The notes under the pieces were generated by a model, which saw only the letters and a program-made list of their open reading frames with translations, made no database searches and was not told where the DNA came from. The translations under genes and the position numbers were made by a program. 40,520 bases of DNA from the NCBI GenBank assembly GCA_938041325.1, contig CALIAG010000019.1, forward strand, positions 1 through 40,520, given 5' to 3'. Positions 10,601 through 40,520 of this stretch are shown piece after piece. The DNA is from an uncultured Saprospiraceae bacterium (GTDB lineage: Bacteria > Bacteroidota > Bacteroidia > Chitinophagales > Saprospiraceae). Position 1 is the stretch's first letter, and the number at the start of each line of letters is the position of its first letter.

Positions 10601-10712
10601 GTCCAATGTTTCTCCATTCTAAAGAAGAGTAATATTTTTCTGGAAGTTCTTGTGCTTGCAAGTCGAAAGTCACTACAATCAATAGTAGGAGTATTAGTTT
10701 TAGGTTTCTCAT
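7623..10712 (-). CDS. Large secreted Asp-box (BNR/VPS10-like) beta-propeller protein
   Basis: This 1029-residue exported protein has a signal peptide (about residues 1-20, LIVVTFDLQAQ). Residues 25-740 contain eleven Asp-box hairpins of the S/T-x-D-x-G-x-x-W type, such as TEDGGRTW, SIDGGDTW, STDGGDTW, SDDGGETW, TQDDGKTW and TTDFGKSW, which form propeller blades like those of sortilin/VPS10 domains and some glycoside hydrolases. Homologues are often annotated as glycosyl hydrolases, but I see no catalytic signature, so protein or carbohydrate binding is equally likely. Residues from about 745 onward hold a beta-sandwich-like region (VPGTYKVELNHNGEKVSENFEVTIDKR) and a C-terminal helical bundle rich in K and E. 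No T9SS sorting domain is present. It follows a lipoprotein gene by 26 bases and is ended by the hairpin at 7561-7600. Confidence 0.88.
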   Translation of the reverse strand: MRNLKLILLLLIVVTFDLQAQELPEKYYSSLEWRNIGPFRGGRSAAATGVPGEPNLFYFGATGGGVWKTEDGGRTWGNISDGFFGGSIGAISVSPSDNNVIYVGGGEVTLRGNVSSGYGLWKSEDAGKTWTSKGLELSRHIPRIAIHPTDFNVVYAAVLGNIYKGSNERGIYKSIDGGDTWKKVLFVNDMAGAVDICLDPNNPRIIYASTWKVQRTPYSLSSGGEGSALWKSTDGGDTWTNISENKGLPKGVWGISGVTVSKAKRDRVWAIIENEKGGVYRSDDGGETWTLTNSDRSLRQRAWYYSRIYADTKDADVVYVVNVSYHKSKDGGKTFKSANAPHGDHHDLWIAPEDPKRMVMADDGGAQVSYDGGITWSTYHNQPTAQFYRVTTDNHFPYRIYAAQQDNSTIRIAHRSDGYSITEDDWESTAGGESAHIAVDPNNPDIVYGGSYDGFLTRKNHKTGEVRAINVWPDNPMGAGAEAMKYRFQWNFPIIVSQHNPKNLYTFSQHVHRSTDEGHSWEVLSDDLTRNDPSKLGSSGGPITQDNTSVEYYCTIFAAAESPMKAGVMWVGSDDGLLHLTQDDGKTWQNVTPKNMPEWNMINSIEPSSWDEGTCYVAATLYKTGDFKPYIYKTTDFGKSWTKIVNGIDNEHFTRVVRMDPKRKGLLYAGTEAGMYISFNDGEKWSPFQLNLPIVPITDLAVKEDNLIAATQGRSLWLIDDLTVLHQMNEKVNGNKIHLFQPKPTYRMPGGQSKKESKTVGKNHPGGVMVHYYIDKLEEKDTVSLSFMDQSGELIKKYSNHAKEKADKLKLEEGANRFDWNMAYPNAKKFDGMIFWWGSLSGPRAVPGTYKVELNHNGEKVSENFEVTIDKRISSSIADIQAQFDFIQSVNAKVTESHEAIIEIRDIRTQIMDYKKKKKDDDEIVDAITVIDSLMTDIEKTLYQTKNKSRQDPLNFPIKLTNKLAHLNSLIRTGSYAPTVQSVAVKKELTEKIDVQLAAFKKIKEKNIKELNELIKRKAVDAIILKADD

Positions 10713-22672: not shown

Positions 22673-25600
22673 TTATTTGTGCTTAGAGATCTTAATGGTT
22701 TCTGTAGTCTTCGCAGAATCGTTGTAGTTGATTCTGATAAAGTATAGTCCAGAAGATAAAGCACTAAAGTCAGCATCTAAGGTTTGCTCTCCAGCAGCTA
22801 CTTGATAAACTCCAACAACTTTACCATCAGCACTTAAAATTTGTACTGTAGCATCCGCTGTTACTTCTTGTCCAATTAGAATTTGAAGTGAGTTAGTAAC
22901 TGGGTTAGGATAGGCAGAAAGTTGATCGTCTCCTTTAGTGACCATTACTTCAGCAACTTCAGAGAATACAATTTCACCATCCAAACCAACTCTTTTGAGT
23001 CTGTAGTAGTTCATTCCTTTTTCAGGATTGTTATGCATGTATTGGTAAGTATTGCTTACCGCATTTCCATTTCCTGCTAACATTGACAATTCTTCAAAAT
23101 TCTCCCCATCAGTTGAGAAGTAAATGAAATAATTGTAAACATCTGTTTCAGCATCAGTTGCCCAATCCAAACGAACCAACGTTTCATTGATCATTGTCGC
23201 TCCGAATCCCATTGCAAAGTTTGCTGCAGGACAGAAGGCATCATCAACACAAACTTTAATGATGTTAGATTCAACAATATAATCAGAACATCCAGCTCTT
23301 CTAGCACATCTGATGAAGTATGTAGTCTCACTCAAAATACCTGGTTGGTAATCTTCGAAGTTAGAATTTGCAATTGGTGTCCATGAAGTATTGAATACTG
23401 GTTGATCAGAAAACATCCATAAGTATTCGATTGGTCCACTTCCTCCTGATGCAGGAAGAACGCTTCTCAATAATCCAGTAGCATCACCAGGACACAATTC
23501 ATCATCTCCACCTTCGATTTCTACTAAACCACCATCCGTTGCATCATCGCAAATTGGGTGGATACCAGCATCAATCGTTAGGTCATCATCTTGACCCTCA
23601 GTAATGATTATAATATCAGTCTTACCATCACTATTTACATCGCTATCAATTGCATCTCCACCATTGTCTTGCTGTGTAAATGTCCAGTCAGCAGGCAATT
23701 GACTAAAGGCAACATAATAAACACCAGGATCAACACATTCTAAAAGGTAGAATCCATTTTCATCAGTGGTGGTCATCATAATCATATTGTCATCAGCATT
23801 ACAAGCTACATTATCTAGACCTCTGTCAAATAAAGTAACCTTTACGTTTGCAACACCTTCTTCATCATCATCTTGTCTTCCGTCTTGATCAAGGTCATAC
23901 CAAACATAGTTTCCAATGTTGATACAAGTATGGAATCCTGCGTCAATTGTTGGGTCATATTCTCCAGGTCCTAATGTTACCATTTGAGACATTCCCATAT
24001 CGCCAGCATCACTATCAAGTGCATCGTCACCTCCTAAGTTTGATCCAGTTGGTGTATAACCAGTTGGTGTATCAAAAGTAACTTTATAAGTACCAGGAAG
24101 TAAACCGTCAAACATGTACATTCCAGTAGCATCGGTGAACAACATTCTCATTATATCAAGACCATCAACTGTAGTACCAGTCAATGTCACTTTTACACCT
24201 TCTATGCCAGATTCACCTGGATCTTGAACACCATTCTTATTGGTATCTTCCCAAACATAGTTTCCTAATTTAGCAGGATCTTCTAATGTTACAGAAGCTT
24301 CACAGCTACATCCAACTTCGTCCGTAATGACTACATCGTATGTTCCAGCACTTAAGCCATCAATGCTTTGAGTACTTGCTCCGTTGCTCCAGTTATAAGT
24401 AAGTGCACCAGTTGCACCGATTGCACTTGCAGAAGCACTACCATCAGAACCATTTAATACGCTGATGTCTGTTCCTTCATTATAACTAGAAGTTACAGCA
24501 GCACTACAAGAAGCTAATCCTGAATTGACAGTTACTGTTGTAGGACTTGCCGTACCAGTACATCCTGCAGCATTTGTTACCGTTACACCGATTGTATAAG
24601 TGCCAGGCATCATCATCGTATAAGTAGGAGTGCTAGAAGTTGCATCATCAAATGAACCTCCAGAAGCGGTCCAGCTATATGTTGCACCTGAAATAGAAGT
24701 AGCAGATAAATCTACAGAACCTCCTCCACAAATACTTGCGAAATCAGGAGTGATTGACACAGTAGGGGAGCCAGAAATAGTTACCGTTGAAGAAGCAGTT
24801 GCAGTACAATCACCTTCAGCAGTTACAGTAACACCGATAGTATAAGTACCAGGCGTCATCATTGTATAAGTTGGTGTTGCACTTGATGCATCATCAAATG
24901 AACCTGCAGAAGAAGTCCAAGCGTAAGTCAAAACAGGTCCAGAAACATTTGCAGTTAAAGCAACTGAAGAACCAACACATGCTTGAGCACCATCAGGGTC
25001 GATGGAAACTGTAGGACAATCTACAGGGCAAAGAGACGGATCTCTAACTACTTCGATAGAGTTACTTAGATCAAAACAACCTGTTAAGTTTCCAGCATTT
25101 TGACCAGCTTCAGCACCAGCAATATCATCATATCCAACTCTCCAAATCAAGCAAGTACCAGCAGGCGCTCCAGTAATATTGAAGCTTGAGTTAGTTGTAA
25201 CTTCTAGGATTGTTAAATCAGCAGTTGTTAAAACATATGCGAAGTTACCAGTAGAAGAACCACCAGTTACATTTACATTAATAATATGAGTGTTACCATC
25301 TGTAGAACAGAAGGTAGTTGGGTCGTTTGTAGAAATAACTCCTGGATCAGGAGCATCACAACAAAGCGAAGGATCTCTAACAACTTCAATTGGATCACTC
25401 AAATCAAAGCAACCTGATAAGTTACCAGCATTTTCACCAACAACAGCACCAGAGATATCAGAATATCCAACTCTCCAAATTAAACAAGTTCCAGCAGGTG
25501 CTCCAGTAATATCAAAACTTGAATTAGGAGTCACCTCTAAGATTGTTAAATCAGAAGTTGTTAATACGTATGCGAAGTTACCAGTAGAAGAACCACCAGT

Positions 25601-27382
25601 AGCTGTTACATTAATAATATGCTGTTGTCCATCCGTTGAACAAAAAGTAGTAGGATCGTTTGTAGAAATCACCCCTGGATCAGGAGCATTACAACAAAGC
25701 GAAGGATCTCTTACAACTTCAATTGGATCACTTAAATCAAAACATCCAGATAAGTTGCCAGCATTTAAACCAGCTTCAGCACCTGAAATATCAGAATACC
25801 CAACTCTCCAAATCAAGCAAGTTCCAGCAGGAGCTCCAGTAATATCGAAAGTAGAGCTAGCTGTAACTTCTAAGATGGTTAAATCTGCTGTAGTCAAAAC
25901 AAATGCAAAATTACCAGTAGAAGAACCACCAGTTACATCTACATTAATAATATGAGCATTGCCATCTGTAGAACAGAAAGTAGTAGGATCGTTTGTAGAA
26001 ATTACTCCTGGATCAGGAGCATCACAACAAAGTGCAGGATTTCTAGTCACTGCGATTGGATCAGAAAGAGCAAAACATCCTCCAAGTCCAGTTGCAGAAG
26101 CTCCAACACTTGCACCTGTCAATGAACCATCATGAGCAACTCTCCAAATCAAGCAAATGCCTGCAGGAGCACCAGTAAGGTCAAAAGAAGGTGTAGTACT
26201 TATATTTAAAATATTAAGAGCATCATCCGTTAAGACATATGCAAATTGTGCATTTGCATCCGCTCCAGTTGTTGTTACATTAATAATGTGTGAGTTACCA
26301 TCAGTTGAACAAAATTCAACAGGATCGTTAGTTGAAATACTACCAGGATTTGGTGCATTAGAACCATCAATGGTAACCATCTCTGTTGCTTCACAACCGT
26401 TAGAATCTGTAACCACTACAGTATATACTCCAGCAGCAAGACCTACTGGGTCAGCAGTTGTTTGCATCGCAGGATCATTCCAAAGGAAAGTATAAGGAGG
26501 AACACCTGTCATTACACTTACATGAGCAGTACCGTTACTTTCTCCACAAACCGATGGAGTAGAAGATAACATTATCCAAATTCCTTCAGGTGACAATTCT
26601 ACAGTTTGTGTAGCAGTCGCTTGACATCCGTTGGCATCGGTTACTGTAACTCCAATTGTACCTGCGCTTAGTCCAGTTGCTATATCAGTAGTTTGTCCGC
26701 CATCCCATAAATAGGTATAAGGCGCAACTCCACCAGAAGCAACCACTGTAGCTGTAGCATCGTTACTACCTCCACAAGTTTCGTAACTTGAAGTTGTAAA
26801 TAAGGAAAGCCCAGAAGCATTGGGAATTGTAACTGTTGTCTCAGCACTACAACCTAATGCGTCAGTGACCGTTACTCCGTAAGGTCCGGAAGCAAGACCA
26901 ACAGCATCATCAGATGTTTGTCCGTCAGACCATAAATAAGAATAAGGCTCTGTTCCAAGCATCGCACTAACGTGTGCAGTTCCTGATGCAGATCCCGAGC
27001 ATGCAGCTGTAAAAGAAGTCATAATCCAAACTCCTTCAGGATGCAAGCTAATAGCACCAGACGCAGTTGCAGTACAACCAGCATCATCTGTGACGATTAC
27101 TGAATAATCACCGACATCAAGACCTGACGCAATAGCAGTTGTTTGTCCATCACTCCAGACATAAGAATATCCAGGTGAACCATTAAAACCAATCGCTTCT
27201 AAAACACCATTACTACTCACTTCGCAAGTTGTGTAGGAGGGTTGAGAAACAACTATAACTCCCAAATTGGAAGTAGAGCAATCTTGTGCATTCAAGCCGA
27301 AACTTGAAAGCAGAAATAAGCCTGATAAACAGAAGGCTTTCAATAATAAAAACGTGTGTTGTGTAAGAGTTTGTTTTTCCAT
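22673..27382 (-). CDS. Giant T9SS type A surface protein (SprB-like, PKD, SdrD-B-like, 111-residue repeats)
   Basis: This 1569-residue exported protein is a probable cell-surface adhesin secreted by the type IX system. In order: signal peptide (1-33, FGLNAQ); four SprB-like repeats of the type YxVTDxxGCxAT (about 35-340); four 111-residue units (about 340-785) with the pattern NDPxxFCSTDG...APAGTCLIWRVGY...GCFDLSDPIEVVRDPSLCC, the last three nearly identical at the DNA level (333-bp period); two PKD/Ig-like domains (about 790-955, WTSSAGSFDDASS); another SprB-like repeat (about 975-1030); two SdrD-B-like domains (about 1039 and 1154, GNYVWEDTNKNGVQDPGE); and an FN3-like stretch. The C-terminus from LSAYPNPVTN (about 1487) to KISKHK is a type A T9SS sorting domain. 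The acidic NGVQDPG repeats suggest calcium binding. Confidence 0.93.
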   Translation of the reverse strand: MEKQTLTQHTFLLLKAFCLSGLFLLSSFGLNAQDCSTSNLGVIVVSQPSYTTCEVSSNGVLEAIGFNGSPGYSYVWSDGQTTAIASGLDVGDYSVIVTDDAGCTATASGAISLHPEGVWIMTSFTAACSGSASGTAHVSAMLGTEPYSYLWSDGQTSDDAVGLASGPYGVTVTDALGCSAETTVTIPNASGLSLFTTSSYETCGGSNDATATVVASGGVAPYTYLWDGGQTTDIATGLSAGTIGVTVTDANGCQATATQTVELSPEGIWIMLSSTPSVCGESNGTAHVSVMTGVPPYTFLWNDPAMQTTADPVGLAAGVYTVVVTDSNGCEATEMVTIDGSNAPNPGSISTNDPVEFCSTDGNSHIINVTTTGADANAQFAYVLTDDALNILNISTTPSFDLTGAPAGICLIWRVAHDGSLTGASVGASATGLGGCFALSDPIAVTRNPALCCDAPDPGVISTNDPTTFCSTDGNAHIINVDVTGGSSTGNFAFVLTTADLTILEVTASSTFDITGAPAGTCLIWRVGYSDISGAEAGLNAGNLSGCFDLSDPIEVVRDPSLCCNAPDPGVISTNDPTTFCSTDGQQHIINVTATGGSSTGNFAYVLTTSDLTILEVTPNSSFDITGAPAGTCLIWRVGYSDISGAVVGENAGNLSGCFDLSDPIEVVRDPSLCCDAPDPGVISTNDPTTFCSTDGNTHIINVNVTGGSSTGNFAYVLTTADLTILEVTTNSSFNITGAPAGTCLIWRVGYDDIAGAEAGQNAGNLTGCFDLSNSIEVVRDPSLCPVDCPTVSIDPDGAQACVGSSVALTANVSGPVLTYAWTSSAGSFDDASSATPTYTMMTPGTYTIGVTVTAEGDCTATASSTVTISGSPTVSITPDFASICGGGSVDLSATSISGATYSWTASGGSFDDATSSTPTYTMMMPGTYTIGVTVTNAAGCTGTASPTTVTVNSGLASCSAAVTSSYNEGTDISVLNGSDGSASASAIGATGALTYNWSNGASTQSIDGLSAGTYDVVITDEVGCSCEASVTLEDPAKLGNYVWEDTNKNGVQDPGESGIEGVKVTLTGTTVDGLDIMRMLFTDATGMYMFDGLLPGTYKVTFDTPTGYTPTGSNLGGDDALDSDAGDMGMSQMVTLGPGEYDPTIDAGFHTCINIGNYVWYDLDQDGRQDDDEEGVANVKVTLFDRGLDNVACNADDNMIMMTTTDENGFYLLECVDPGVYYVAFSQLPADWTFTQQDNGGDAIDSDVNSDGKTDIIIITEGQDDDLTIDAGIHPICDDATDGGLVEIEGGDDELCPGDATGLLRSVLPASGGSGPIEYLWMFSDQPVFNTSWTPIANSNFEDYQPGILSETTYFIRCARRAGCSDYIVESNIIKVCVDDAFCPAANFAMGFGATMINETLVRLDWATDAETDVYNYFIYFSTDGENFEELSMLAGNGNAVSNTYQYMHNNPEKGMNYYRLKRVGLDGEIVFSEVAEVMVTKGDDQLSAYPNPVTNSLQILIGQEVTADATVQILSADGKVVGVYQVAAGEQTLDADFSALSSGLYFIRINYNDSAKTTETIKISKHK
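25020..26365 (-). repeat. Four tandem 333-336 bp in-frame repeats in the giant surface gene
   Basis: Unit boundaries fall at equivalent GGGTCG/GGATCG positions 25320, 25653, 25986 and 26322, i.e. 333, 333 and 336 bases. The three copies nearest the 3' end differ mostly at synonymous positions and short stretches such as DAPDPGVISTNDP; the most N-terminal copy is clearly diverged. Each encodes a 111-residue unit with conserved cysteine pairs (FC, LCC, CF). Confidence 0.85.
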
Positions 27383-27841: not shown

Positions 27842-28432
27842 TTAAACAGTTATTAATGTATTGTGAATTTTGTTTATTTGTTTGATCAAACTGTTTTCGT
27901 GATCGTTGTAAATAATGAAATCACTCAATTTCACTTTATCCTCATCATTCCATTGTTTATTTATTCTTGATTGTACTTGTTCCCTGGAGCTTTTATCTCT
28001 AGCCATGACCCTTTCTATGCGCAATTCCAATGGAGAAACTACCGTGATAATTTTGTCTAATGTCGCAAAGTTGCCACTTTCAAATAAGAGTGCTGCTTCC
28101 TTAATGGTGTAAGGGGATTTTGAATGATCCAGTTGCCATAATTCGCCATCTTTCTTTACAGCGGGATGAACGATTTCATTGAGTGCCTTTAATTTTGACT
28201 GATCTTGAAAAGCTACCGCTCCAATATATTTACGATTTAAATTACCGTCTCCGAAATAAGCTTCTTTTCCAAAGACCTTTTTTATTTCTTGGATTACTTC
28301 TACATTATTGACCATCAGTAGTTTAGCTCTGTCATCAGCGTAGTAAATGGGAATTCCGTAAGTTTCGAAAATCTTACAAACAGTGGTTTTACCACTACCA
28401 ATTCCCCCTGTGATCCCTATTTTTAGTCCCAT
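27842..28432 (-). CDS. coaE: Dephospho-CoA kinase
   Basis: This cytosolic enzyme performs the last step of coenzyme A synthesis, phosphorylating the 3'-hydroxyl of dephospho-CoA with ATP. The 196-residue length is right for CoaE. The Walker A motif is GGIGSGKTT (residues 9-17). IPIYYADDRAKLLM holds the conserved ADD acidic residues of the substrate pocket, the middle part has LNEIVHPAVK (the HP motif) and the lid region VVSPLELRIERVMARDKSSREQVQSRINKQW matches the family well. It is divergent from the PorP/SprF-like gene, 134 bases apart, and has no recognisable terminator. It is a housekeeping gene that marks where the secretion cluster begins. Confidence 0.95.
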   Translation of the reverse strand: MGLKIGITGGIGSGKTTVCKIFETYGIPIYYADDRAKLLMVNNVEVIQEIKKVFGKEAYFGDGNLNRKYIGAVAFQDQSKLKALNEIVHPAVKKDGELWQLDHSKSPYTIKEAALLFESGNFATLDKIITVVSPLELRIERVMARDKSSREQVQSRINKQWNDEDKVKLSDFIIYNDHENSLIKQINKIHNTLITV

Positions 28433-28566: not shown

Positions 28567-29622
28567 ATGGAAATCCGTAGGAGTTCAAAAAATCTACTCT
28601 TGAGTATTTTAAACCTTCCTTTTAAAATATTGATTATTAGCTTTTTAAGCATCAGTTGCTTAAAGGGACAAGATCTTCATTTTTCTCAATTCTATCAAAA
28701 TCCTTTGAATTTAAACCCAGCCTTAACTGGTGTTTTTCAAGAAGATCTCAGATTTACTTCAACTTTCCGTCAGCAATGGCAATCGGTTCCAGTCCCTTTT
28801 ACCACTTTCACTGGTTCATTTGATACTAAGCTTTCTATTAAGGAGATATCTAGTGGAGTAATTTCCGCAGGTTTGATTCTAAATGCTGATCAAGCAGGGG
28901 ATTCCCAATTGAGTCAAATTCAAATCGCCGCCGCAGGATCCTATGCACATAAATTGAATAAGCAGAATATGTTGAGTATTGGATTGCAACTTGGTATTTC
29001 TCAAAGAGCCTTCAAAACAGATGATTTGCAGTTTGCGAATCAATTCAATGGTGAGTTTTTTGATCCGAATCAAAATAGTAGAGAGCGTTTTGATAGAACA
29101 AGCTTGATCTATGCTGATTTATCAACAGGGTTTAATTGGCATTTTCAAACAAGCGAAAGAAATTGGTTGGATATAGGAGTAGGTCTTTTTCATTTAAATG
29201 AACCCAATTTTAGTTTTTTAGAAGAGAACGATATTAAGTTGAAGAAAAGATGGGCGTTTAGTGGACAAGGGCTTTTTAAATTAAATGAAGTTTTAGATAT
29301 TTCTGGAATTGCACTATATAATACAAGGCGTTCTGCAAATGAGTTGGTAATAGGCACAGGTATTCGGTACTATTTAAAGAAAGAAGATTTTTCCCTTTTT
29401 GCCATTCAACCCATGCTTTCTTACAGAGTAGGTTTTAATGATGCAATTATTCCAGGTATTTTAGTTTTATATGATTCCTGGAGATTTGGATTAAGTTTCG
29501 ATATAAATGTTTCTGATTTTAAAATTGCTACTGGAGGAAACGGAGGTCCAGAAATTACTGTTCAATATCTTATCAAGAAAGTAAAACCCATAGATGAAAT
29601 CAAGGTTTGTCCTATTTTTTAA
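28567..29622 (+). CDS. PorP/SprF family type IX secretion outer-membrane protein
   Basis: This 351-residue protein belongs to the PorP/SprF family, outer-membrane beta barrels linked to the type IX secretion system and surface attachment of its cargo. The signal peptide spans about residues 1-34 (SFLSISCLKGQ). The family hallmark follows at once: QDLHFSQFYQNPLNLNPALTGVFQEDLRF, then FRQQWQSVPVPFTTFTGSFD. The rest is alternating amphipathic strands. Members encoded beside type B cargo (for example sprF beside sprB in Flavobacterium) are needed for that cargo to be secreted or anchored. The next gene starts inside this one (29-base overlap), so the two are translationally coupled. Functional specificity for the downstream PKD protein is inferred from position. 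Confidence 0.93.
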   Translation: MEIRRSSKNLLLSILNLPFKILIISFLSISCLKGQDLHFSQFYQNPLNLNPALTGVFQEDLRFTSTFRQQWQSVPVPFTTFTGSFDTKLSIKEISSGVISAGLILNADQAGDSQLSQIQIAAAGSYAHKLNKQNMLSIGLQLGISQRAFKTDDLQFANQFNGEFFDPNQNSRERFDRTSLIYADLSTGFNWHFQTSERNWLDIGVGLFHLNEPNFSFLEENDIKLKKRWAFSGQGLFKLNEVLDISGIALYNTRRSANELVIGTGIRYYLKKEDFSLFAIQPMLSYRVGFNDAIIPGILVLYDSWRFGLSFDINVSDFKIATGGNGGPEITVQYLIKKVKPIDEIKVCPIF

Positions 29623-31642
29623 AAGGATTAAAAATACAATCGTGCTGACTTTTAGTTTAGGGCTATTGCTATCTCTCAACCTAAACGCCCAAAGTTCAAA
29701 AGCTTTTTTCAAGGCTGCGGACCAGGCCATTTTGAAAGGAGACAATGTTTATGCCTTTGAGTATTTGAAGAATGGTCTAAACCAGGAACGGGACAACTAT
29801 GTGAGGAAAACGCAATTGGCTGAAATTGCACTGGAAATCAATGCTTTTGATTTTGCGGAAAATATTCTATTGACTCAATTATCAAATAAGAGTACAACGA
29901 ATAAATATCAGCAACATCTCTTGCTGGGGAAAGTGTATGAAGGAAAAGGGGAGTATGAAAAAGCCATCGAAGAATATTCGAAATTATTCGTTCCAAAGAA
30001 TGTCGACTTAAAGAAAAAGGAAGAAGCAAAAAAAAGAACAGATCATTGCAATTGGGCATTAACCAAAGTAAAAGATTCTTTGAATGTTAGTGTATTCCAT
30101 TTTGATAAATCAATCAATTCACCTTACTCAGATTTCGGAGCCCTCCTGCTAAGTGATACGTTGGTTTTTAGCTCTTTCAAGTTTGAAGCTGGGGAAAATT
30201 TAAATAGCCCTTCTGGAAAAACAACAAAGCTGTTATTCAAAAGTCCAGGATCCAGAGCAAAACCTTTTCCCAAAAAAATAAATGATGTAAATCATATCGT
30301 TGCGAATGCAACATTCAATGAAGGCCGTACCAAAATGTATTTCACGAAGTGTAAGTTTGAAGACGGTTTAGGTATACGATGTTCGATTTACTCTTCTACA
30401 AAAGACAAGCGCAAACGTTGGGGGACACCCAAAAGAATGAATGATATAGTGAATGAGAAAGGAGCAACAACGACCCACCCACATTTGTCAATGCATCCTC
30501 AAACAAAACAACCCATTTTAATATTTATATCAGACAGGAAAGGTGGAAAAGGAAAGGAGGACATTTGGTTTGCGAATTTGAATGAACAAGGGGTAGCAAC
30601 TGGTGTTGAAAATCTAAAATATTTAAACACAACGGAAAGTGAAGCAAGTCCATTTTTCGATTTGAAAAATAAAGAAATTTATTTTAGCTCTACCGGAAGA
30701 AAAGGATTGGGGGTTTATGACATTTATTCTTGTAAAAATCCTTTTACGAATCCAAGTGAAATTAAGCACCTTCCTTATCCCATTAATACCAGTTATAATG
30801 ATTTGTATTATACCATAAATACAGATTCAACTTTTGCTTTAATCTCTTCTAATAGGCCCGGCTCTTTTTATCTTGATAAGTCGAATAAGACCTGTTGCAA
30901 TGATATTTTCAAAATCAATTTTAATACTGAAGACGATAAGGTTTTAGTTGAAAAAGAAGAGCCGGATACAACAAGTTTTCCGTTGGTTGTAACAGCAATT
31001 GAAAAGCCTGAAGAACCAGCAGAAAAAGAACAACCTGCAATCATTACAGAAAGGTATGTTCCTAAGAGTTTAGAAGAGTTCTTGCCTTTGACGCTGTACT
31101 TTGACAATGATCAACCAGATCCACGTACTCGAAAATCCAGTACTGAGAAAGACTATTCAACAACCTACTTGAAGTACATTTCAAAAAAGGAAGAGTACAA
31201 GATTAATTTTTCTGCAAATAGTTCAGAATATGAAAGAGGGCAAAACGATCAAAATTTAGAATCTTTCTTTGAAGACGAAATCAGGCTCGGCTTTGATCGT
31301 TTAAATCTTTTTTCTGAAATGCTATTATTGAAATTAGAAGCAGGCGAACAAATTGAAATATTTTTAAAAGGATATACCAGTCCGCGAGCCAAAAGTGATT
31401 ATAACTTATTCTTGGGTCAGCGAAGAGTCAGTTGTCTGAGAAATCATTTCAGCACTTATCAAAACGGAATATTTTCAACCTATCTAAATAGTGGTTTTTT
31501 GAAAATATCGGAAAGGTCTTTTGGAGAAACTACTGCAAGTCAAAACATTTCAGATGATTTAGAAGACCGTCGTAATTCGGTTTATTCTGTTCCCGCAGCC
31601 AAGGAACGAAGGGTAGAAATCATTGAAATCATCAGAAATTAA
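29594..31642 (+). CDS. TPR/PD40/OmpA-like envelope protein of the T9SS cluster
   Basis: This 682-residue exported protein begins with a signal (to about residue 33, LLLSLNLNAQ). A TPR region (about 35-155; EYEKAIEEYSKLFVPKN) is followed by WD40-like (PD40) propeller stretches at about 180-455 (PHLSMHPQTKQPILIFISDRKGG and EIYFSSTGRKGLGVYDIYSC), and an OmpA-like domain at about 495-682 (LYFDNDQPDPRT, YNLFLGQRRVSCLRNHF, AAKERRVEI). OmpA-like domains bind peptidoglycan non-covalently, which would tie the secretion machinery to the cell wall, as PorE does in Porphyromonas (inference from similar architecture). The start at 29594 overlaps the PorP/SprF-like gene by 29 bases. It lies between that gene and the giant PKD cargo genes. 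Confidence 0.88.
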   Translation: MKSRFVLFFKRIKNTIVLTFSLGLLLSLNLNAQSSKAFFKAADQAILKGDNVYAFEYLKNGLNQERDNYVRKTQLAEIALEINAFDFAENILLTQLSNKSTTNKYQQHLLLGKVYEGKGEYEKAIEEYSKLFVPKNVDLKKKEEAKKRTDHCNWALTKVKDSLNVSVFHFDKSINSPYSDFGALLLSDTLVFSSFKFEAGENLNSPSGKTTKLLFKSPGSRAKPFPKKINDVNHIVANATFNEGRTKMYFTKCKFEDGLGIRCSIYSSTKDKRKRWGTPKRMNDIVNEKGATTTHPHLSMHPQTKQPILIFISDRKGGKGKEDIWFANLNEQGVATGVENLKYLNTTESEASPFFDLKNKEIYFSSTGRKGLGVYDIYSCKNPFTNPSEIKHLPYPINTSYNDLYYTINTDSTFALISSNRPGSFYLDKSNKTCCNDIFKINFNTEDDKVLVEKEEPDTTSFPLVVTAIEKPEEPAEKEQPAIITERYVPKSLEEFLPLTLYFDNDQPDPRTRKSSTEKDYSTTYLKYISKKEEYKINFSANSSEYERGQNDQNLESFFEDEIRLGFDRLNLFSEMLLLKLEAGEQIEIFLKGYTSPRAKSDYNLFLGQRRVSCLRNHFSTYQNGIFSTYLNSGFLKISERSFGETTASQNISDDLEDRRNSVYSVPAAKERRVEIIEIIRN

Positions 31643-31931
31643 TTTTTTATCCACATATATTGATTTCTAACATTTTTTGGAACGAATATTGCATATAATC
31701 GTAATATAATACTCCACACTATTATTCCACACACCTTTTGATGTACTCCCATGTCGTATAACGATCAAACTGCTTTCGTCAGTTCTGATCCTGTTTCAGT
31801 TTTCTAATTATCAATACCGGAAATTAAGTTGCAAATGCTCGTGACTAGAGGGAATTCCTTTGCTAGTTACTAAGCTATAGGCCCATGGTCTTAGGCAATT
31901 ATTTTTCTATGTACAAAAAACAAACTATACT

Positions 31932-34900
31932 ATGACGGGAACGCTTCTACTCCGCTTTAGCATGACTATTTCATGTTGCTTATCCTCTGTTTTTTTAGCA
32001 GCTCAATTGAATGCTGATTTTAATTTTTCAGCCACTGAAGGTTGTGGCTCAGTGCAAGTTTCTTTTTGTGACGAGTCTACTTCTTCCAATAATATTGTTG
32101 CTTGGTCCTGGGATTTAGGTGGAGTAGCTTCCAGTCAAGAATGTCCTGGCAGAATTTTCGGGTCATCAGGTACTCACACCGTTTGTTTAACGGTAACCGA
32201 TGCTCAGGGAAATACTGATACAGAATGCAAAGTTGATTTGATTACAGTTTTTGAAGAACCTACGGCTGACTTTAACTCAGACTTCACTCAGGGTTGTGCA
32301 CCACTTGCTGTTGATTTTTTGGATATGTCCACCGCTCCCCAAGGTTCATTGGTTGAGTGGGAATGGATATTGGAAGGTCCATGTGGGACTGTTGTCTTAA
32401 ATGATATGACAAATTCCAATACCAATTGTATTTTTACAGATCCTGGAAGCTATGATGTTTCCTTGCGTATAATAGATGAAAATGGATGTTCAGATTATAT
32501 TTCAAAACCTGATTATATTACCATCCATCCGGATCCGATTATTTCGTTTACAACCTTAGATACCTTTTCTTGTACTGCACCATTAAGTGCTCAGTTTTTA
32601 AACGAGAATATAGAACTAGGAGTTCTTTACACTTGGGATTTTGGAAATGGAGATACTTATGAAGGACCGATTCCGCCAATTGTTAGTTACAATAGTATTG
32701 GAAATTATGATGTAGAATTGAAAGCAGAAAATACTTCAACTACTTGTGAAGTCAGTGAAATAAAAGAGGATCTTATTCAGATCGCTTATCCTGTTACTTT
32801 TACAGCAGATGCTCAAACCGTTTGTGTTGGAGAAACCTTACGTGTTGAAGATACTTCTGTTGACGCAGCAGACAGCATAAGATGGACCTTTAGCGATGGA
32901 AGTTTTTTTACCTCGAATTCTGTTGACAAGACTTTTGACTTTCCTGGCTGTTATACCTTTACCTTGAATCGCTATATTGACGGCTGTGTTTTTACCGAAG
33001 TTGGAGCCAATTGTATTCTTGTTAATCCGGCTCCAAGTGTTTCATATTCGAATGATAACAATATTGGTTGCACACTTCCACATGTAGTAAATTTTGTAGG
33101 AATGTCCTCAACGGCACAAACTTGGTCCTGGGATTTTGGAGATGGGTCAAGCCCTGAAAATACACAATATCCAGTTCATCAATTCAATCAATATGGTGAT
33201 TTTGAAGTTGAACTGACGGTTACAAATGCTCAAGGATGTTCTAATTCTGAAATTATAAATACCATTGAAGTTAAGGAAGTTGAAGCCCAAATTGATGAAA
33301 TTCAGATTGCAGGATGTTTGCCGCTTGACGCTAATTTTACAGAAAATTCTTATTCCGTCACACCAATCAATACTTGGAATTGGGAGGTCGTAACAGATCA
33401 AGGGGCTTATCAATCGAATACGGATACTGGAATGTTTAGCATTCCGGATACAGGCGTTTGGGATTTAATACTCACTGTTTCAAATACTTTGGGATGTGTA
33501 GATGTCGATACTTTACAACGAGCAATAGTTGTAGGAACCTTGCCCGAAATAGCATTTGAAGCGGACCCTCGAGAAGAATGCATCGAGACGGATATTAATT
33601 TTACAGACCTATCCAGCAACTATGCAGAGAGTTGGGTTTGGGAATTCGGAGATGGAGATATTGCAACGACTCAAAATGCTACTCATCAATACCAAGACAC
33701 AGGTTACTACGATATCATTTTAACCGCATCCCACAATGGTTGTGAAAACGATACTGTTTACCAAGATTATATTCACATCAAAGAACCGCTTTCGAAATTT
33801 AATATTTCGCTTGATTGTGAACAACCTTATTTGCGTTTTTTTAATGATCAATCTATTGGTGCACAAACTGTCTTATGGGATTTCGGAGTCACAGAGTCTA
33901 CTGTCGACACCTCTACCGCTTGGAACCCTACCTTTGTTTATCCCAATACAGGTACATATATTGTAACACAAACCGTTTTTAACAGCAGTACTTCTTGTGA
34001 TCATTCTACAACAAAGACAGTTGTCATTACAGAACCCAATGCGAACTTTGACCTCAATGTATTTAGTGGCTGCGTTCCACTTGAAATCCAAACGGTAGAC
34101 CTATCTGATTTTGCAGTGGAATGGGACTGGACTTCTCCTGGAGGAAGTCTTTCTAATAACCAATTTCCAGAACCGAATATTACTTTTAATTCAGCAGGGG
34201 CTTATACTGATATCGAGTTGATCATCAAAGATTTTAATAACTGTCGAGATACCTTTCTTTTAGTAGACACTATTTTTGTGAATGGAATCACTGTTGATTT
34301 CTCCTTTGATCCTGCATCCGGATGTAATCCATTGCCAGTTAATTTTATAGATTCTTCTTCTAATTTATTTGCAAATAATATTCAATGGGATTGGGACTTT
34401 GGAGATGGAACAGCTAGTGAATCTGGTTTATTTCTTGATCATGCTTTTAACGAACAAGGATTGTTTGATATTACTTTAACCGTTCGAGATGATTGGGGCT
34501 GCTCAGAAACGCTTAGTATACCTGACGCAATAGATGTCGCTCAACCAGTAGCAGATTTTTCTACCTTAGATACTTTAAGTTGTACATCTCATTGTGTGCA
34601 ATTTCAAAACAGCTCAATAGGCAATGATTTAAATTATTATTGGGATTTTGGAGATGGAAATATCTCTATTGATGAAAACCCTGAACATTGTTATCAAACG
34701 GAAGGGCTATATGATGTTTGTCTAACAATCGAAGATAATTATGGTTGTGATAGCACTTTATGTAAATTGAATTACATTGAAATTGCTGACCCTGTAGCAA
34801 ATTTTACGGGGTCACCATTAAGTGCCTCTTGTCCACCTTTGGAAAGTACATTTGTAAATCTATCTCAAAATGCGACTTCTTTCTTCTGGACTTTTGAATC

Positions 34901-37520
34901 GAATACAGATACTTCTTTTTCTGAAAATCCAATTTATATTTATGAAGAACCAGGCTTGTTTTCCGTTAGTCTCGTAGCAGCATCTACAGATTTCTGCAGA
35001 GATACATTGACGATTGACAATTACATTGATATTGATGGGCCTAAAGGAGATTTTTCTTTTGAAATAGATACTTCTTGTACTCCCGTTAAGGTTACTTTTA
35101 AAGCAAGTTCTGCAGAGCCCTATGAATACATTTGGCATTTTGGCAATGGTGAAACTTTGGCTAGAGGAGCGGGCTTATCTTCCGATTCCCTAATTTATTT
35201 TTATGAAACTCCGGGAACGTTTTTAAGTTCTTTGCAATTGATTGATCCATTTGGCTGTAGTCGAATTATAGAAGCGGAACAAACAATTTATATTTCTCAA
35301 TTGATTGCTCAATTCGTGGCTTCGGATACGCTGCTATGCGATGAAAATAATCCAATAATTTTTTCTAACCTCAGCAACTCTACAGACCCAATTTTGTTTT
35401 CAGAATGGCTTTTTGAAGGAGGAGATATTCCGCAAACAAATGATTTGGAACCTTCTATTATTTATAACCTTCCTGGAGAATTCGATGTTCAATTGATTGT
35501 TGCCAACGAATTTTGTATAGACACTTTGAGTAGAAACGATTTTATTAAAGTCGGGTCATTGCCGAATGCAAATTTCCTTAAGTCTGCAGAAGAAGGATGT
35601 GCCCCATTGCAAGTTGATTTTACGGACCTATCAAGTGTACCTAATTCAACAATAGTTTCCTGGGAATGGGATTTCGGGAATGGGCTTTTTTCAAATCTGC
35701 AGAATCCATCTAATACTTATACCTCAGGAGGTGTTTTTCCTATTTCCTTAAAAGTTACTTCAGACATAGGTTGTCAATCTGTTTTTTCTCAAACAATAAC
35801 CGTTAGTGAAATTGCGGAATTGAATTTATCGGATGATCAAACAATCTGTATCGGAGGTGTTGCTAGTCTAAGCGCCGAAATAGTTGGTGATACAAGCGGT
35901 CTGTTTTATAGTTGGTCTCCTGCTACGGATTTGTCTTGCACCCAATGCTTAAATCCAAATGCAAGTCCTTTGGACACAACAACGTATCTATTTACTGTTA
36001 CGAACGCAGATGGGTGTATAACGACCAGTGCTACAAAAGTGAATGTACTGCCTTTTTCAGCACCTGTGATTGAGATATCAAAGGATACATCTATTTGTTA
36101 TGGAAACTTTGCACAATTGAATGTAGTAGGCGGCGCCAATGTTTATGAATATCAATGGGATGAATTAAACTCTGGTTTATCTTGCTATCAGAATTGCAAT
36201 AATCCTTTGGCCAATCCGCTTGAAAATACAACATACCATGTTACCGTTACAAATGAGTATGGTTGTTCATCAAGGGATTCAGTGACCATTGAAGTAATTG
36301 ATGATCGACAAAGTTTTGCAACAGAAGATCAAATTATCTGTGAGGGAAATGAAATACAGTTGAATATTGATTATGGAGAAGATCCGACTTGGTCCAATAC
36401 CACAGGTTTGAGTTGTATCTATTGTCCCAATCCAATAGCAAACCCAACGACTTCGATTCATTATGTAGTGGAAGTAAGAAGTCAAAATAATTGCCTCATT
36501 TCCGATTCAGTATTTATTGAAGTAATAGATGAAAACTCCATTGATGCAGGAGAAGATGTAAAAATATGTGAAGGAGAAACCATTCAATTGGCCGGAAAGG
36601 GGAGTGGGAATGTATCTTGGTTTCCAAGAGAATATTTGGACAACACTATGATACTTACACCCAATGCCAATCCACTCACCACTACACAATATTTCCTTGA
36701 AACAACCTTAGGGCAGTGCGTTTTAAGAGATTCTGTTTGGATAGAGGTAAATACTAAAACAATGGTAGAGGCAGAAGATTTGGAAATTTGTAAAGGAGAC
36801 AGCATAAACTTGTTTTTGGAAGGAGAGTTTGATGTTGTCAATTGGTATGTAAACTCAATTTTTTTAACAGATAATGAAAGCCCTTTTTTAGTCCCGGAAG
36901 AAGATCTTGCGATTTCTGCCATTGCAAAATGGAGGACTTGCATTCCAGATACCGTTTCTTTTTTAATAACAAGTAATGAATTACCACAAGTGGAATTACC
37001 CACTGTTCATGAATTTTTACCTGAACAAGGCATACAAATCGAATTAGATTACGACGAAAGTGAATCCTATGATTTTACTTGGTTTCCAAATGCTGATTTA
37101 GATTGTAATAAATGCCCTCGACCGATTGTTCAAACTGATTCTTCTTTTTTATTGACTTTGATTGTAGAAGATTTACAAACTAAATGTGAAAATGAATTCA
37201 GTAGCTTCATTCAACCGGCTAATCGCTGTCCCGAAAACTTGATTGCCGTCCCAAATGCTTTTAGCCCGAATGAAGATGGTCAGAATGATGAACTAGAGAT
37301 TTTTCCTTCCCCCGCTATCAAAGAATATGTTAGTGATTTCCGTGTTGTTGATAGATGGGGGAATGTGGTTTTTCAAACCAATAATCCTGATCAAAATTGG
37401 TCAGGAAATTATAAATCTAAACCAGCACCTATTGGAATCTATTTATGCGAAGTTCGCTATCTGTGTCCCATTACTGGAAGGTTGGAAAGTGTATTTAGTG
37501 ATGTGCTATTGATTAAATAA
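31932..37520 (+). CDS. Giant PKD-repeat surface protein with T9SS type B (gliding-associated) sorting domain
   Basis: This 1862-residue protein is a probable surface adhesin. A signal peptide covers about residues 1-24 (SCCLSSVFLAAQ). About fifteen PKD-like domains of about 85 residues follow (roughly 27-1295), each with a WxWDFGDG-type core (for example WSWDFGDGS, WDWDFGDGT, YYWDFGDGN, WEWDFGNGL) and conserved GC spacing. Five to six repeats of about 80 residues then follow, opened by SDDQTICIGG, SKDTSICYGN, TEDQIICEGN, GEDVKICEGE and EDLEICKGD. The last 95 residues (AVPNAFSPNEDGQNDELEIFPSP to DVLLIK, with RWGNVVFQT and YLCEVRY) form the type B domain. The ATG at 31932 is preferred, though the one at codon 11 is possible. 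Being next to a PorP/SprF gene, it is the likely partner cargo. Confidence 0.93.
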   Translation: MTGTLLLRFSMTISCCLSSVFLAAQLNADFNFSATEGCGSVQVSFCDESTSSNNIVAWSWDLGGVASSQECPGRIFGSSGTHTVCLTVTDAQGNTDTECKVDLITVFEEPTADFNSDFTQGCAPLAVDFLDMSTAPQGSLVEWEWILEGPCGTVVLNDMTNSNTNCIFTDPGSYDVSLRIIDENGCSDYISKPDYITIHPDPIISFTTLDTFSCTAPLSAQFLNENIELGVLYTWDFGNGDTYEGPIPPIVSYNSIGNYDVELKAENTSTTCEVSEIKEDLIQIAYPVTFTADAQTVCVGETLRVEDTSVDAADSIRWTFSDGSFFTSNSVDKTFDFPGCYTFTLNRYIDGCVFTEVGANCILVNPAPSVSYSNDNNIGCTLPHVVNFVGMSSTAQTWSWDFGDGSSPENTQYPVHQFNQYGDFEVELTVTNAQGCSNSEIINTIEVKEVEAQIDEIQIAGCLPLDANFTENSYSVTPINTWNWEVVTDQGAYQSNTDTGMFSIPDTGVWDLILTVSNTLGCVDVDTLQRAIVVGTLPEIAFEADPREECIETDINFTDLSSNYAESWVWEFGDGDIATTQNATHQYQDTGYYDIILTASHNGCENDTVYQDYIHIKEPLSKFNISLDCEQPYLRFFNDQSIGAQTVLWDFGVTESTVDTSTAWNPTFVYPNTGTYIVTQTVFNSSTSCDHSTTKTVVITEPNANFDLNVFSGCVPLEIQTVDLSDFAVEWDWTSPGGSLSNNQFPEPNITFNSAGAYTDIELIIKDFNNCRDTFLLVDTIFVNGITVDFSFDPASGCNPLPVNFIDSSSNLFANNIQWDWDFGDGTASESGLFLDHAFNEQGLFDITLTVRDDWGCSETLSIPDAIDVAQPVADFSTLDTLSCTSHCVQFQNSSIGNDLNYYWDFGDGNISIDENPEHCYQTEGLYDVCLTIEDNYGCDSTLCKLNYIEIADPVANFTGSPLSASCPPLESTFVNLSQNATSFFWTFESNTDTSFSENPIYIYEEPGLFSVSLVAASTDFCRDTLTIDNYIDIDGPKGDFSFEIDTSCTPVKVTFKASSAEPYEYIWHFGNGETLARGAGLSSDSLIYFYETPGTFLSSLQLIDPFGCSRIIEAEQTIYISQLIAQFVASDTLLCDENNPIIFSNLSNSTDPILFSEWLFEGGDIPQTNDLEPSIIYNLPGEFDVQLIVANEFCIDTLSRNDFIKVGSLPNANFLKSAEEGCAPLQVDFTDLSSVPNSTIVSWEWDFGNGLFSNLQNPSNTYTSGGVFPISLKVTSDIGCQSVFSQTITVSEIAELNLSDDQTICIGGVASLSAEIVGDTSGLFYSWSPATDLSCTQCLNPNASPLDTTTYLFTVTNADGCITTSATKVNVLPFSAPVIEISKDTSICYGNFAQLNVVGGANVYEYQWDELNSGLSCYQNCNNPLANPLENTTYHVTVTNEYGCSSRDSVTIEVIDDRQSFATEDQIICEGNEIQLNIDYGEDPTWSNTTGLSCIYCPNPIANPTTSIHYVVEVRSQNNCLISDSVFIEVIDENSIDAGEDVKICEGETIQLAGKGSGNVSWFPREYLDNTMILTPNANPLTTTQYFLETTLGQCVLRDSVWIEVNTKTMVEAEDLEICKGDSINLFLEGEFDVVNWYVNSIFLTDNESPFLVPEEDLAISAIAKWRTCIPDTVSFLITSNELPQVELPTVHEFLPEQGIQIELDYDESESYDFTWFPNADLDCNKCPRPIVQTDSSFLLTLIVEDLQTKCENEFSSFIQPANRCPENLIAVPNAFSPNEDGQNDELEIFPSPAIKEYVSDFRVVDRWGNVVFQTNNPDQNWSGNYKSKPAPIGIYLCEVRYLCPITGRLESVFSDVLLIK

Positions 37521-37532
37521 TTTCGAATAAGG

Positions 37533-37555
37533 AATTCTTATAATGAGAATTTTTA
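37533..37555 (+). terminator. Weak hairpin terminator after the first giant PKD gene
   Basis: AATTCT (37533-37538) pairs with AGAATT (37546-37551) around a 7-base loop, followed by TTTT. It is 12 bases past the stop codon. The stem is only six pairs, so the call is tentative; read-through into the next PKD gene is possible. Confidence 0.4.
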
Positions 37556-37805
37556 ATGTTAATATGAGAATTTTAAGTTTATTACAGATCAAGTAATAGC
37601 GATTCTGTGACATTAGAAAAATGTAACATTACAATTTTCACTAAATTCTTATCACTTGTTTTACACATGATTACTTCTAGAAATAAGAAACAAAAAAAAA
37701 CGGACCATTTTGCGACATACATAAGTAGCTGAAAATGAATTTACTGCGGCATGCTCTTTGACTTTATATAAGCATTAAGAAAAAGAGAAAAAACCCGTAG
37801 TTAAT

Positions 37806-40520
37806 ATGCTTAATAAATGCCTATTAGCCATTTTGACGTTATCGCTATTTTCAATCTTGGAAATAAATGCGCAAGTAACCGTTGATTTTGATGCTGATGT
37901 TAGAGAAGGTTGTGGATCACTTCAAGTATCCTTTTCTGATCAATCCAGTTCGACTGCAGGAAGTATTACATCCTGGGAGTGGAATCTTGGAGGAGTAAGT
38001 TCAAACCTTGCAGACCCCGGACGAATTTTTGGTTCCGTTGGTTCTTATCAAATCTGTTTGACTGTTACCGATAATCAAGGTAACACGGATACTAAATGTG
38101 AAGAAGATTACATTGTCATTCACGATTTACCAACTCCTGATTTTATCGCAACTGTTAATACTGGCTGTATCCCACACGAAGTAACATTCGAAGATCGATC
38201 GACAAGCACTTCGGATATCGTTGAATGGATATGGGATGTTGGTGGTTCTGCAGGTGTTGTAACCCAAACTGGATCCGCTGAACCAGTTACTTCACTATAT
38301 ACAATTGCAGATGACTATTCTGTGAATCTAATTATAAGAGATGAAAATGGTTGTGAATCCATTCTTTTTGAACCTTCTTATGTTATCGTAAATGGTGAGC
38401 CTATTATTGATGTAGAAGCTACCGAAACCTTCACTTGTAGTTTTCCATTCTCAGCTAATTTTGTAAATAATAATATAGAACCGAATACCGAGTATACTTG
38501 GAATTTTGGTAACGGCAGTATCTTTACTGGTAACACACCTCCTGGAGTTGTCTATGGACAACAAGGAACATATACAGTGACCGTTGTTGGTGCTAATACA
38601 ATCACAGGATGTGCAGATACTTTGGTTTTACCCGATTATATTCATGTCGGCCACCCAATAGATTTTGAAATTGAAGCGAATACAGGTTGTGTAAATACGC
38701 CCCTATCATTTACAAATACATCCGGGGCCACGGCAGATGCCGTAACTTGGGATTTTGGGGATGGAAATACATCCAATGCTGCTAACCCAAATCATTCTTA
38801 TGCTACAGCAGGATGTTACACTGTAAGTCTAGCTATTGAGATCGATGGTTGTACTACTACAAAATATACTAGTAATTGTATTAATGTTTTCGAAAAACCA
38901 ACAGTATCCTATTTATTTGATGAGCCAGCTGGATGTACAATCCCACATGATGTACAGTTTACCGGAACAGGTAATTCAATAGGTGTCATTACAGATTGGG
39001 CATGGAATTTTGGAGATGGAAATACAAGCTCTCTTCAAAACCCTTCGCACACTTATGATAGCTATGGTGATTTTCCAGTGAGACTCACAATTACTGATAG
39101 TAATGGTTGTAGAAAAAAGATTGATGATCAGGAAATTCAGATTCAAGAATTAAGTGCTAGTATTCCTTTTGATTTATTAAACGGGTGTAAACCCTTGGGA
39201 GTGAATCTCCTTGACAATTCAAATTCAGTTTTTCCTTTAACAAGCTGGAATTGGGCTGTTGTTGAAAGTGGAACATCTCCAGCAAATGTTATCCACAGTT
39301 CAACTCAAGAGAATCCTGTTTTCGCAATTCAGGATACGGGGGTTTATGATGTCATTTTAGAAGTCGCAAATGCTGGAGGCTGTGTTGATAAAGACACTTT
39401 TGAGCAAAGAATAGAAGTTGGTATGCCACCTGTTATTTCTTTTGATGCAAACCCAAGAATAAACTGTGTCAATAGTAATACCGACTTCGAAAACAATACT
39501 AGTGATTGGGCGGATGTTTTTATTTGGAGTTTTGGTGATGGGGAAGTAGTAGAAGAATTTGAGCCTATATATGAATATGCAGATACAGGAAAATTCGATG
39601 TAACTTTAATTGCATTGCATAATGGTTGTCCAAATGAATTAATTCAGACTGATTTTATTGAAATTTTGCCACCAATTGCGAAAGGAAGAGTAACCGTTGA
39701 TTGTGAAAATCCTTTTGATCGTGTTTTTGACAATAATTCAATTGGTGCGGATTCTATCTATTGGGATTTCGGAGACAATTCGACCTCTTTAGATTCTACC
39801 ACTTTTAAAGGAGAAACCACATATACATTTCCGGGGACAGGTTCTTACGGAGCCATTTTGATTGCCTACAATGCCGTAACAGGTTGTACGGATACGATTG
39901 AACATGCAATAGAAATTACGGATCCTGAAGCAGCATTTACCATTAATGAAACATTAGGTTGTAATCCATTGACCTTAACGGTAAATAACAATTCTCAGTT
40001 TGGAGATACTTATTTATGGACTGGTACAGGCGCAGAATTTTCAAATAGCGGTGCCGTAGAGCCAGAAATTGTATTTAATGATTCAGGAACTTTTTCTGAT
40101 CTTGTTTTAGAAATTGAAGATGTAAATGGTTGTAGAGATACTTTTTTGTTTGCCGATGATATCTTGGTTAATGGTGTAGACGTAGATGCTACATTCAATG
40201 CGGCTGGAGGGTGCGAACCGTTTAGTGCGCAGTTTAATGATAATTCAACTGATTTATTTGGAAATATAATTTCTTGGGAATGGAATGTTGCTGATGGTTT
40301 ATATACCTCTACAGATCAAAATCCATCTTTTGTTATGGATTCTGTAGGTGCCTTTGATGTCGTTTTAACAGTAACCGACGATATAGGATGTACAGGAACA
40401 ACTACATTTAGTGAAGCAGTATTGGTAACCAAACCAGTTGCTAATTTTGAAGGTGATAGCTTGACCTGTACAGCCGGTCCAGTTCAATTTTTTAATACTT
40501 CAGAAGGAGTAGATTTAGTT
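37806..40520 (+). CDS. Second giant PKD-repeat surface protein, colinear paralogue (3' end outside window)
   Basis: This open frame runs 905 codons to the window edge without a stop and is not otherwise terminated. It starts MLNKCLLAILTLSLFSILEINAQ, a signal peptide ending INAQ, and continues VTVDFDADVREGCGSLQVSFSDQSSS. Ten complete PKD-like domains and the start of an eleventh are visible, in the same order as in the protein at 31932: WEWNLGG, WIWDVGG, YTWNFGNGS, VTWDFGDGN, WAWNFGDGN, the deviant WNWAVV, FIWSFGDGE, IYWDFGDNS, YLWTGTG and WEWNVADG. Shared phrases such as PGRIFGS, NGCRDTFL and GCPNE-type loops support a duplication. The C-terminus is not visible, but a type B sorting domain is expected by analogy. 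It follows the first PKD gene by 285 bases. Confidence 0.93.
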   Translation, partial: MLNKCLLAILTLSLFSILEINAQVTVDFDADVREGCGSLQVSFSDQSSSTAGSITSWEWNLGGVSSNLADPGRIFGSVGSYQICLTVTDNQGNTDTKCEEDYIVIHDLPTPDFIATVNTGCIPHEVTFEDRSTSTSDIVEWIWDVGGSAGVVTQTGSAEPVTSLYTIADDYSVNLIIRDENGCESILFEPSYVIVNGEPIIDVEATETFTCSFPFSANFVNNNIEPNTEYTWNFGNGSIFTGNTPPGVVYGQQGTYTVTVVGANTITGCADTLVLPDYIHVGHPIDFEIEANTGCVNTPLSFTNTSGATADAVTWDFGDGNTSNAANPNHSYATAGCYTVSLAIEIDGCTTTKYTSNCINVFEKPTVSYLFDEPAGCTIPHDVQFTGTGNSIGVITDWAWNFGDGNTSSLQNPSHTYDSYGDFPVRLTITDSNGCRKKIDDQEIQIQELSASIPFDLLNGCKPLGVNLLDNSNSVFPLTSWNWAVVESGTSPANVIHSSTQENPVFAIQDTGVYDVILEVANAGGCVDKDTFEQRIEVGMPPVISFDANPRINCVNSNTDFENNTSDWADVFIWSFGDGEVVEEFEPIYEYADTGKFDVTLIALHNGCPNELIQTDFIEILPPIAKGRVTVDCENPFDRVFDNNSIGADSIYWDFGDNSTSLDSTTFKGETTYTFPGTGSYGAILIAYNAVTGCTDTIEHAIEITDPEAAFTINETLGCNPLTLTVNNNSQFGDTYLWTGTGAEFSNSGAVEPEIVFNDSGTFSDLVLEIEDVNGCRDTFLFADDILVNGVDVDATFNAAGGCEPFSAQFNDNSTDLFGNIISWEWNVADGLYTSTDQNPSFVMDSVGAFDVVLTVTDDIGCTGTTTFSEAVLVTKPVANFEGDSLTCTAGPVQFFNTSEGVDLV

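Follow-up and report, generated by a model that had tools for sequence, protein, structure and literature searches.

How does an uncultured Saprospiraceae bacterium hold giant secreted proteins at its surface, and how many of them can a single outer-membrane carrier serve? These questions are raised by four open reading frames (ORFs) that run head to tail on the plus strand at the end of contig CALIAG010000019.1 (GCA_938041325.1). This contig, C19 in our numbering, is analysed here in its entirety as the window (40,520 nucleotides) and belongs to a 6.3-Mb genome in 578 contigs. The ORFs encode a PorP/SprF-family outer-membrane protein (porP), a PorE-like periplasmic protein and two giant PKD-repeat proteins, PKD1 and PKD2, the latter left open by the contig end (Table 1). 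Their coordinates, orientation and order, and the 29-base overlap of the first two genes, are as given in the initial annotation of this DNA. We are highly confident in identifying the locus as a type IX secretion system (T9SS) module, and moderately so in the explanation as a whole, in which a carrier-and-anchor module serves giant type B adhesins and the carrier may be covalently joined to its PorE-like partner.

Sets of PorP, PorE and type B proteins are already known from Porphyromonas and Flavobacterium; the cargo order and cargo array found here are a variant, different in gene order, in the presence of at least three giant cargos and in the anatomy of the PorE-like protein. Type B adhesins are currently proposed to be either mobile, with SprF disulfide-linked to a moving track and without PorE, or static, with PorP and PorE tied to the cell wall (PMC9143113, PMC12618676, PMC12635249). 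The module fits neither class cleanly, because a carrier tail cysteine and a PorE-like partner are both present, and this partner has neither a lipid anchor nor the Asp that canonically binds the wall.

Carrier, PorE-like partner and cargo array

The product of porP scores 177.2 bits against the PorP/SprF model TIGR03519 (cut-off 90.55) and matches Pfam PorP_SprF (PF11751) at 8e-40, which bears out the family assignment made initially. With its AlphaFold2 (AF2) model (predicted local distance difference test score, pLDDT, 86.7), Foldseek retrieved FadL chains and PorV chains of the T9SS translocon (6h3i_F, 8gl6_F; E 5e-8 to 1e-6), pointing to a FadL-type outer-membrane barrel, while a PDB sequence search with the PorP profile gave nothing useful. 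The protein ends in a single Cys348-Pro-Ile-Phe rather than in the Cys-X-Cys tail of SprF, and both Cys348 and Pro349 are invariant among orthologues (alignment of 50 sequences). The genome as a whole contains 15 full-scoring PorP/SprF matches, 49 type B domains and 14 readable PorE-like proteins; the ends of contigs C220 (L010) and C378 (L015) appear to share one porP gene, so that the PorP count is probably 14.

The PorE-like protein comprises a signal peptide without a lipobox, TPRs, a PD40/WD40-like propeller, a disordered linker and an OmpA-like domain, with no PorE-type CRD (AF2 model, mean pLDDT 88.8). Its match to the PorE model NF052230 (121.8 bits, cut-off 600; E 2.6e-35) covers positions 84–406 of 648 only and thus falls short of full length, and a partial match to the CHU_0125 OmpA-like family (NF053607; 2.8e-27, 95 bits against a cut-off of 620) does not make it a member of that family. 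TPR, propeller and OmpA-like parts are nevertheless recognizable from AF2 secondary structure and from weak PD40, TPR and OmpA profile matches in the orthologue set. The protein's own Pfam scan contained no OmpA match; weak OmpA matches were obtained for 12 of 17 aligned orthologues (best E 0.0027). Foldseek results were dominated by the propeller, with no OmpA among the matches listed, and all matches listed by a PDB sequence search with the profile were TPR proteins; the OmpA assignment therefore rests on a motif, weak profile matches and predicted secondary structure. Copies of this C-terminal domain were also seen within frames of 1,374–1,917 aa in three other genomes (G046:C121, G037:C197, G031:C2), twice in one case.

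In PorE, diaminopimelate (DAP) is bound by Asp576, Asn584 and Arg591 (PMC7192894). The Asp is Ser in all 60 aligned orthologues of the PorE-like protein (Ser596 in the window), which weakens the peptidoglycan anchoring that had been proposed for it. The other two ligands are retained as Asn604 and Arg611, and DAP binding may possibly be altered rather than absent. Nor is the protein a recognizable lipoprotein, its first cysteine being residue 152.

The type B domain annotated at the end of PKD1 scores above the TIGR04131 cut-off (Table 1), and it follows about 15–16 PKD units (Pfam finds 8 PKD_4 stretches, our own profile about 16 units). The last 141 bases of the window are the first 141 of reverse-complemented contig C463, an exact overlap with no other occurrence in the assembly. 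Joined across it, PKD2 is 1,865 aa long and 40% identical to PKD1 over 1,852 aa. The initial annotation had made its reading depend on how this second PKD gene ends, and the ending is of the same kind: a type B domain on C463 (TIGR04131, 61.7 bits), in a C-terminus that is the genome's best match to that of PKD1 (130 bits, against 61 for the next). Both PKD1 and PKD2 thus bear the C-terminal TIGR04131/CHU_C domain of type B cargo. Beginning 554 bases past PKD2, a third PKD gene exits C463 still open (1,209 aa); when a continuing contig was sought in the assembly with the last 141 bases of C463, none was found. The cargo gene is repeated in tandem, as first described, but in at least three copies, not two. 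Polycystin and MSCRAMM profile matches reflect common PKD/SdrD_B repeats, and membership of those families was rejected.

PKD2 is completed only via a contig join and PKD3 is incomplete, and the array could in principle be an artefact of assembly. We regard this as very improbable, because the unrelated assembly of a relative (G016) carries coaE, porP, the porE-like gene and three intact PKD genes (1,866, 1,866 and 1,859 aa) on one 204-kb contig; the exactness and uniqueness of the 141-bp overlap, and the presence of two copies in some other genomes, also speak against it. The tandem duplication appears to be older than the genera compared, with the copies kept distinct, because in a tree of 22 PKD copies (several forks of which are weak) the first-position copies of different genera mostly form one group and position labels change fewer times than in any shuffle. 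Intergenic gaps in the window array and its continuation measure 285–554 bp, and a strict Bacteroidota promoter motif sought in them was not found. Downstream of PKD2 lies a strong stem-loop with a T-run, a sign that at least PKD3 may be transcribed separately.

Adjacent porP and porE-like genes are found across many Bacteroidia families, in most relatives examined, and this pairing is much more widespread among genomes than the PKD array. The initial picture of an OmpA-like gene inserted between exporter and cargo was mistaken, in that the two genes form a conserved unit known from earlier work on F. johnsoniae and P. gingivalis (PMC9143113, PMC12618676); six F. johnsoniae porP-like genes adjoin porE-like genes (PMC9143113). 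The named relatives whose PorE-like proteins come closest are, with few exceptions, metagenome assemblies of Saprospiraceae. Two culturable relatives, Phaeodactylibacter xiamenensis (L176) and Lewinella cohaerens (L177), also have porP together with the porE-like gene. Among 80 named loci selected by similarity to the PorE-like protein, a PKD gene adjoins the pair in about a dozen, chiefly those of highest similarity, some of these being cut at contig or locus edges. The array is retained only in a subclade, which spans several genera. The expectation that homologous clusters keep these genes together therefore holds for the pair and fails for the array beyond that subclade.

By analogy with known homologues, the PKD proteins would exit through the SprA translocon, their type B C-terminal domains would be received by the PorP/SprF-type carrier, and they would remain displayed on it at the cell surface. 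Because the genes are adjacent and the C-termini of PKD1 and PKD2 are alike, we consider it probable that the single neighbouring PorP serves the whole PKD1–PKD2–PKD3 array.

Joint changes of cysteines in PorP and the PorE-like protein

What, then, might hold the PorE-like protein at the outer membrane? It carries a vicinal cysteine pair at the end of the propeller, with Cys435 invariant and Cys434 present in at least 90% of 60 orthologues, and the occurrence of this motif follows that of the PorP tail cysteine, a pairing noticed in the data rather than predicted beforehand. We collected 152 adjacent porP/porE-like pairs within the same order and in further families of the class. The sample is non-random: most pairs were reached through their similarity to the window proteins, and the class-level draw was hand-picked from PorP search matches. 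Two pairs (L322, L347) in which the PorE-like region is cut off were set aside. The 150 informative pairs agree without exception: 131 have both tail and PorE-like cysteines, and 19 have neither. Their patterns also match: a single tail Cys goes with CC, a tail CC with xC (4 pairs) and a tail CPTC with CxC (2 pairs). In the clade formed by L186, L187, L190 and L192, the PorP tail has gained a second Cys (CCPVF) and the PorE-like protein has lost Cys434.

On the PorE-like tree, all three changes of tail pattern fall on branches where the PorE-like motif changes as well (the chance of such coinciding branches, 3e-6, assumes equal branches and is post hoc, and we do not use it as proof). Within this genome, the motif occurs in all three PorE-like proteins that adjoin a Cys-tail PorP and in none of the 11 others (Fisher p 0.0027; related proteins are among the eleven). 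A lipobox-like motif is present in 3 of 131 Cys-type PorE-like proteins, compared with 7 of 19 others, a suggestive fit to a disulfide that might replace the lipid anchor.

Because the cysteines of the two proteins appear and rearrange together, we infer an inter-protein disulfide as the most economical account of them, and give it about an even chance of being real. The periplasmic Cys348 tail of PorP would bond Cys435 (or Cys434) of the PorE-like protein, with the second PorE-like cysteine acting as an exchanging partner, much as the twin cysteines of SprF do with GldK. This covalent link would take over from the missing lipid anchor in keeping the PorE-like protein at the outer membrane, and the OmpA-like domain would no longer bind DAP in the canonical way. 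More tentatively, a large PorP branch across the Bacteroidia may be disulfide-joined to a PorE-like protein free of a lipid anchor; in most lineages the twin cysteines belong to the PorE-like protein, and in one to the carrier. If true, this class-wide coupling would be a second periplasmic disulfide coupling besides that of SprF/PorG with GldK. We found no report of the carrier/PorE-like covariation in the literature searched (open-access full text), and the pattern yields a specific and cheap biochemical prediction, accessible to a non-reducing gel.

Several observations weigh against such a disulfide. Presence and absence change once per protein, on the same branch, so that the 150 concordant pairs amount to one deep split and two rearrangements, and an independent-pairs test has 1 to 3 contrasts, too few to reach significance. 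One pair (L379) keeps the single tail Cys yet has a different PorE-like cysteine arrangement. A looser lipobox pattern narrows the contrast to 8 of 131 versus 9 of 19, which falls on the same branch and is not independent. Many Cys-tail PorPs have no PorE-like neighbour, and in family f19 (L287, L302) PorP is fused directly, in one frame, to the same OmpA-like domain and retains the tail Cys with no propeller; in these cases the tail Cys must serve some other purpose.

The direct joining of PorP to such a domain in f19 also speaks for the module as a unit. The f19 fusions and a further PorP–OmpA fusion (L018:8064-9791) are 574–575 aa long. Those of f19 bear the same non-canonical GYASP motif as the PorE-like protein, whereas the one in this genome, on contig C42, has a Cys-rich repeat linker and the canonical GHTD.

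Possible alternatives: mobile adhesins, orphan carriers and static tethers

The tail cysteine could instead serve a moving track. In F. johnsoniae, the gliding adhesin carrier SprF is bonded through its C-tail CxC to Cys343 of GldK, and the SprB–SprF–GldK system shares with the window a giant type B adhesin, a PorP/SprF carrier and a Cys in the periplasmic C-tail (PMC12635249). Were PorP likewise disulfide-linked to GldK, the PKD proteins would be mobile adhesins and the CC of the PorE-like protein would have an unrelated structural role. This genome's own GldK offers a putative acceptor in Cys286, which aligns with the PorK Cys within the same local sequence. A track is possible too, hinted at on contig C82 (L022:1688-4396), where a Cys-tail porP lies directly upstream of a GldJ-like gene (376 bits, below the cut-off of 458). 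For PorPs that lack a PorE-like neighbour, and for the f19 fusions, GldK is the obvious partner, and it may be so here. However, SprF has CxC, GldK as its partner and no PorE-like neighbour, whereas the window PorP ends in C-P-x-F/Y and has the PorE-like protein as its proposed partner. Linkage to GldK leaves unexplained both the joint changes of tail and PorE-like motif and the restriction of the motif to PorE-like proteins beside Cys-tail PorPs, and the PorE-linked carriers of F. johnsoniae are proposed to be static (PMC9143113, PMC12618676); we consider it unlikely. Less likely still is static tethering to peptidoglycan with no inter-protein disulfide, the cysteines reflecting shared ancestry only. 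Its model is PorE–PorP–PG1035 of P. gingivalis (PMC9143113), with the same kinds of protein in the same neighbourhood: a PorP-family barrel, a partner with TPR, propeller and OmpA-like parts, and a type B cargo. The conserved Asn604 and Arg611, and the Asp kept at the DAP position in 15 Cys-type PorE-like proteins elsewhere, agree with it, but P. gingivalis PorE, a lipoprotein, has a CRD and an OmpA domain that binds peptidoglycan, while the window protein has no lipobox, no CRD, Ser for Asp in every aligned orthologue and coupled cysteines that rearrange in step with the carrier.

A different doubt concerns the cargo. The pair might be an orphan carrier serving other type B proteins in trans, with the PKD array a mere neighbour that uses another carrier; such orphan carriers are known (PMC12618676), and the 49 type B domains of this genome compare with about 14 PorPs. 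Two further points weigh against a dedicated array carrier. The PKD family has no match (E 1e-150) in 9 of 22 genomes selected for a PorE-like orthologue, and in others its gene is located elsewhere, tens of kilobases away in G078. In two cases (G033 and L194), the PKD gene that adjoins the pair precedes a further porP of its own, which is the usual cargo–carrier order. The wide gaps and the stem-loop after PKD2 also argue against a single operon. Five F. johnsoniae operons, such as Fjoh_3952-3951-3950, combine type B, SprF-like and PorE-like genes, with proposed static anchoring and with carriers specific for cargo C-terminal domains (PMC12618676). They resemble the window in these three protein kinds and in that specificity, and differ in placing the carrier gene directly after its cargo, whereas here porP and the porE-like gene precede at least three cargos. 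An orphan carrier nevertheless accounts poorly for adjacency retained through several genera, with old and distinct tandem copies, and for G016, where the 40 kb read of the cluster holds no second porP. We regard it as improbable, to much the same degree as the linkage to GldK, and prefer a PorP that serves the adjacent array.

Features of the locus and neighbouring genes

Table 1. Features of the module and its divergent neighbour (positions in the window; aa, amino acids).
Feature	Position	Strand	Basis or remark
coaE (dephospho-CoA kinase)	27842..28432	-	NCBIfam TIGR00152, 132 bits
porP: PorP/SprF-family outer-membrane carrier, 351 aa, predicted FadL/PorV-like barrel	28567..29622	+	TIGR03519, PF11751
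Overlap of porP (stop region) and porE-like gene (start), 29 bases	29594..29622	+	
PorP C-tail codons, Cys348-Pro-Ile-Phe351	29608..29619	+	within the porP/porE-like overlap
PorE-like periplasmic protein, 682 aa	29594..31642	+	NF052230, 2.6e-35; AF2
Vicinal Cys434-Cys435, propeller end	30893..30898	+	proposed partner of PorP tail Cys
OmpA-like C-terminal domain	31070..31636	+	DAP-ligand positions Ser596, Asn604, Arg611
PKD1: type B cargo, 1,862 aa, 65 Cys; PKD units, Ig-like region, CHU_C/type B C-terminal domain	31932..37520	+	
PKD1 type B sorting domain	37245..37457	+	TIGR04131, 37.7 bits (cut-off 35); PF13585 (CHU_C), 4e-13
PKD2, first 905 aa (open; rest on contig C463)	37806..40520	+	unique 141-bp overlap

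The minus-strand coaE lies beside porP in many close relatives as well; this divergent neighbour is a marker of the locus and stands outside the mechanism. On its far side, a few hundred bases from the module, a minus-strand gene (22673-27382) encodes a 1,569-aa protein in which SdrD_B, SprB-repeat and PKD domains are combined with a T9SS sorting domain of type A. Further away, positions 7623-10712 (minus strand) encode a 1,029-aa sortilin/BNR-repeat protein that resembles an NCBIfam glycosylhydrolase family at a score under the cut-off.

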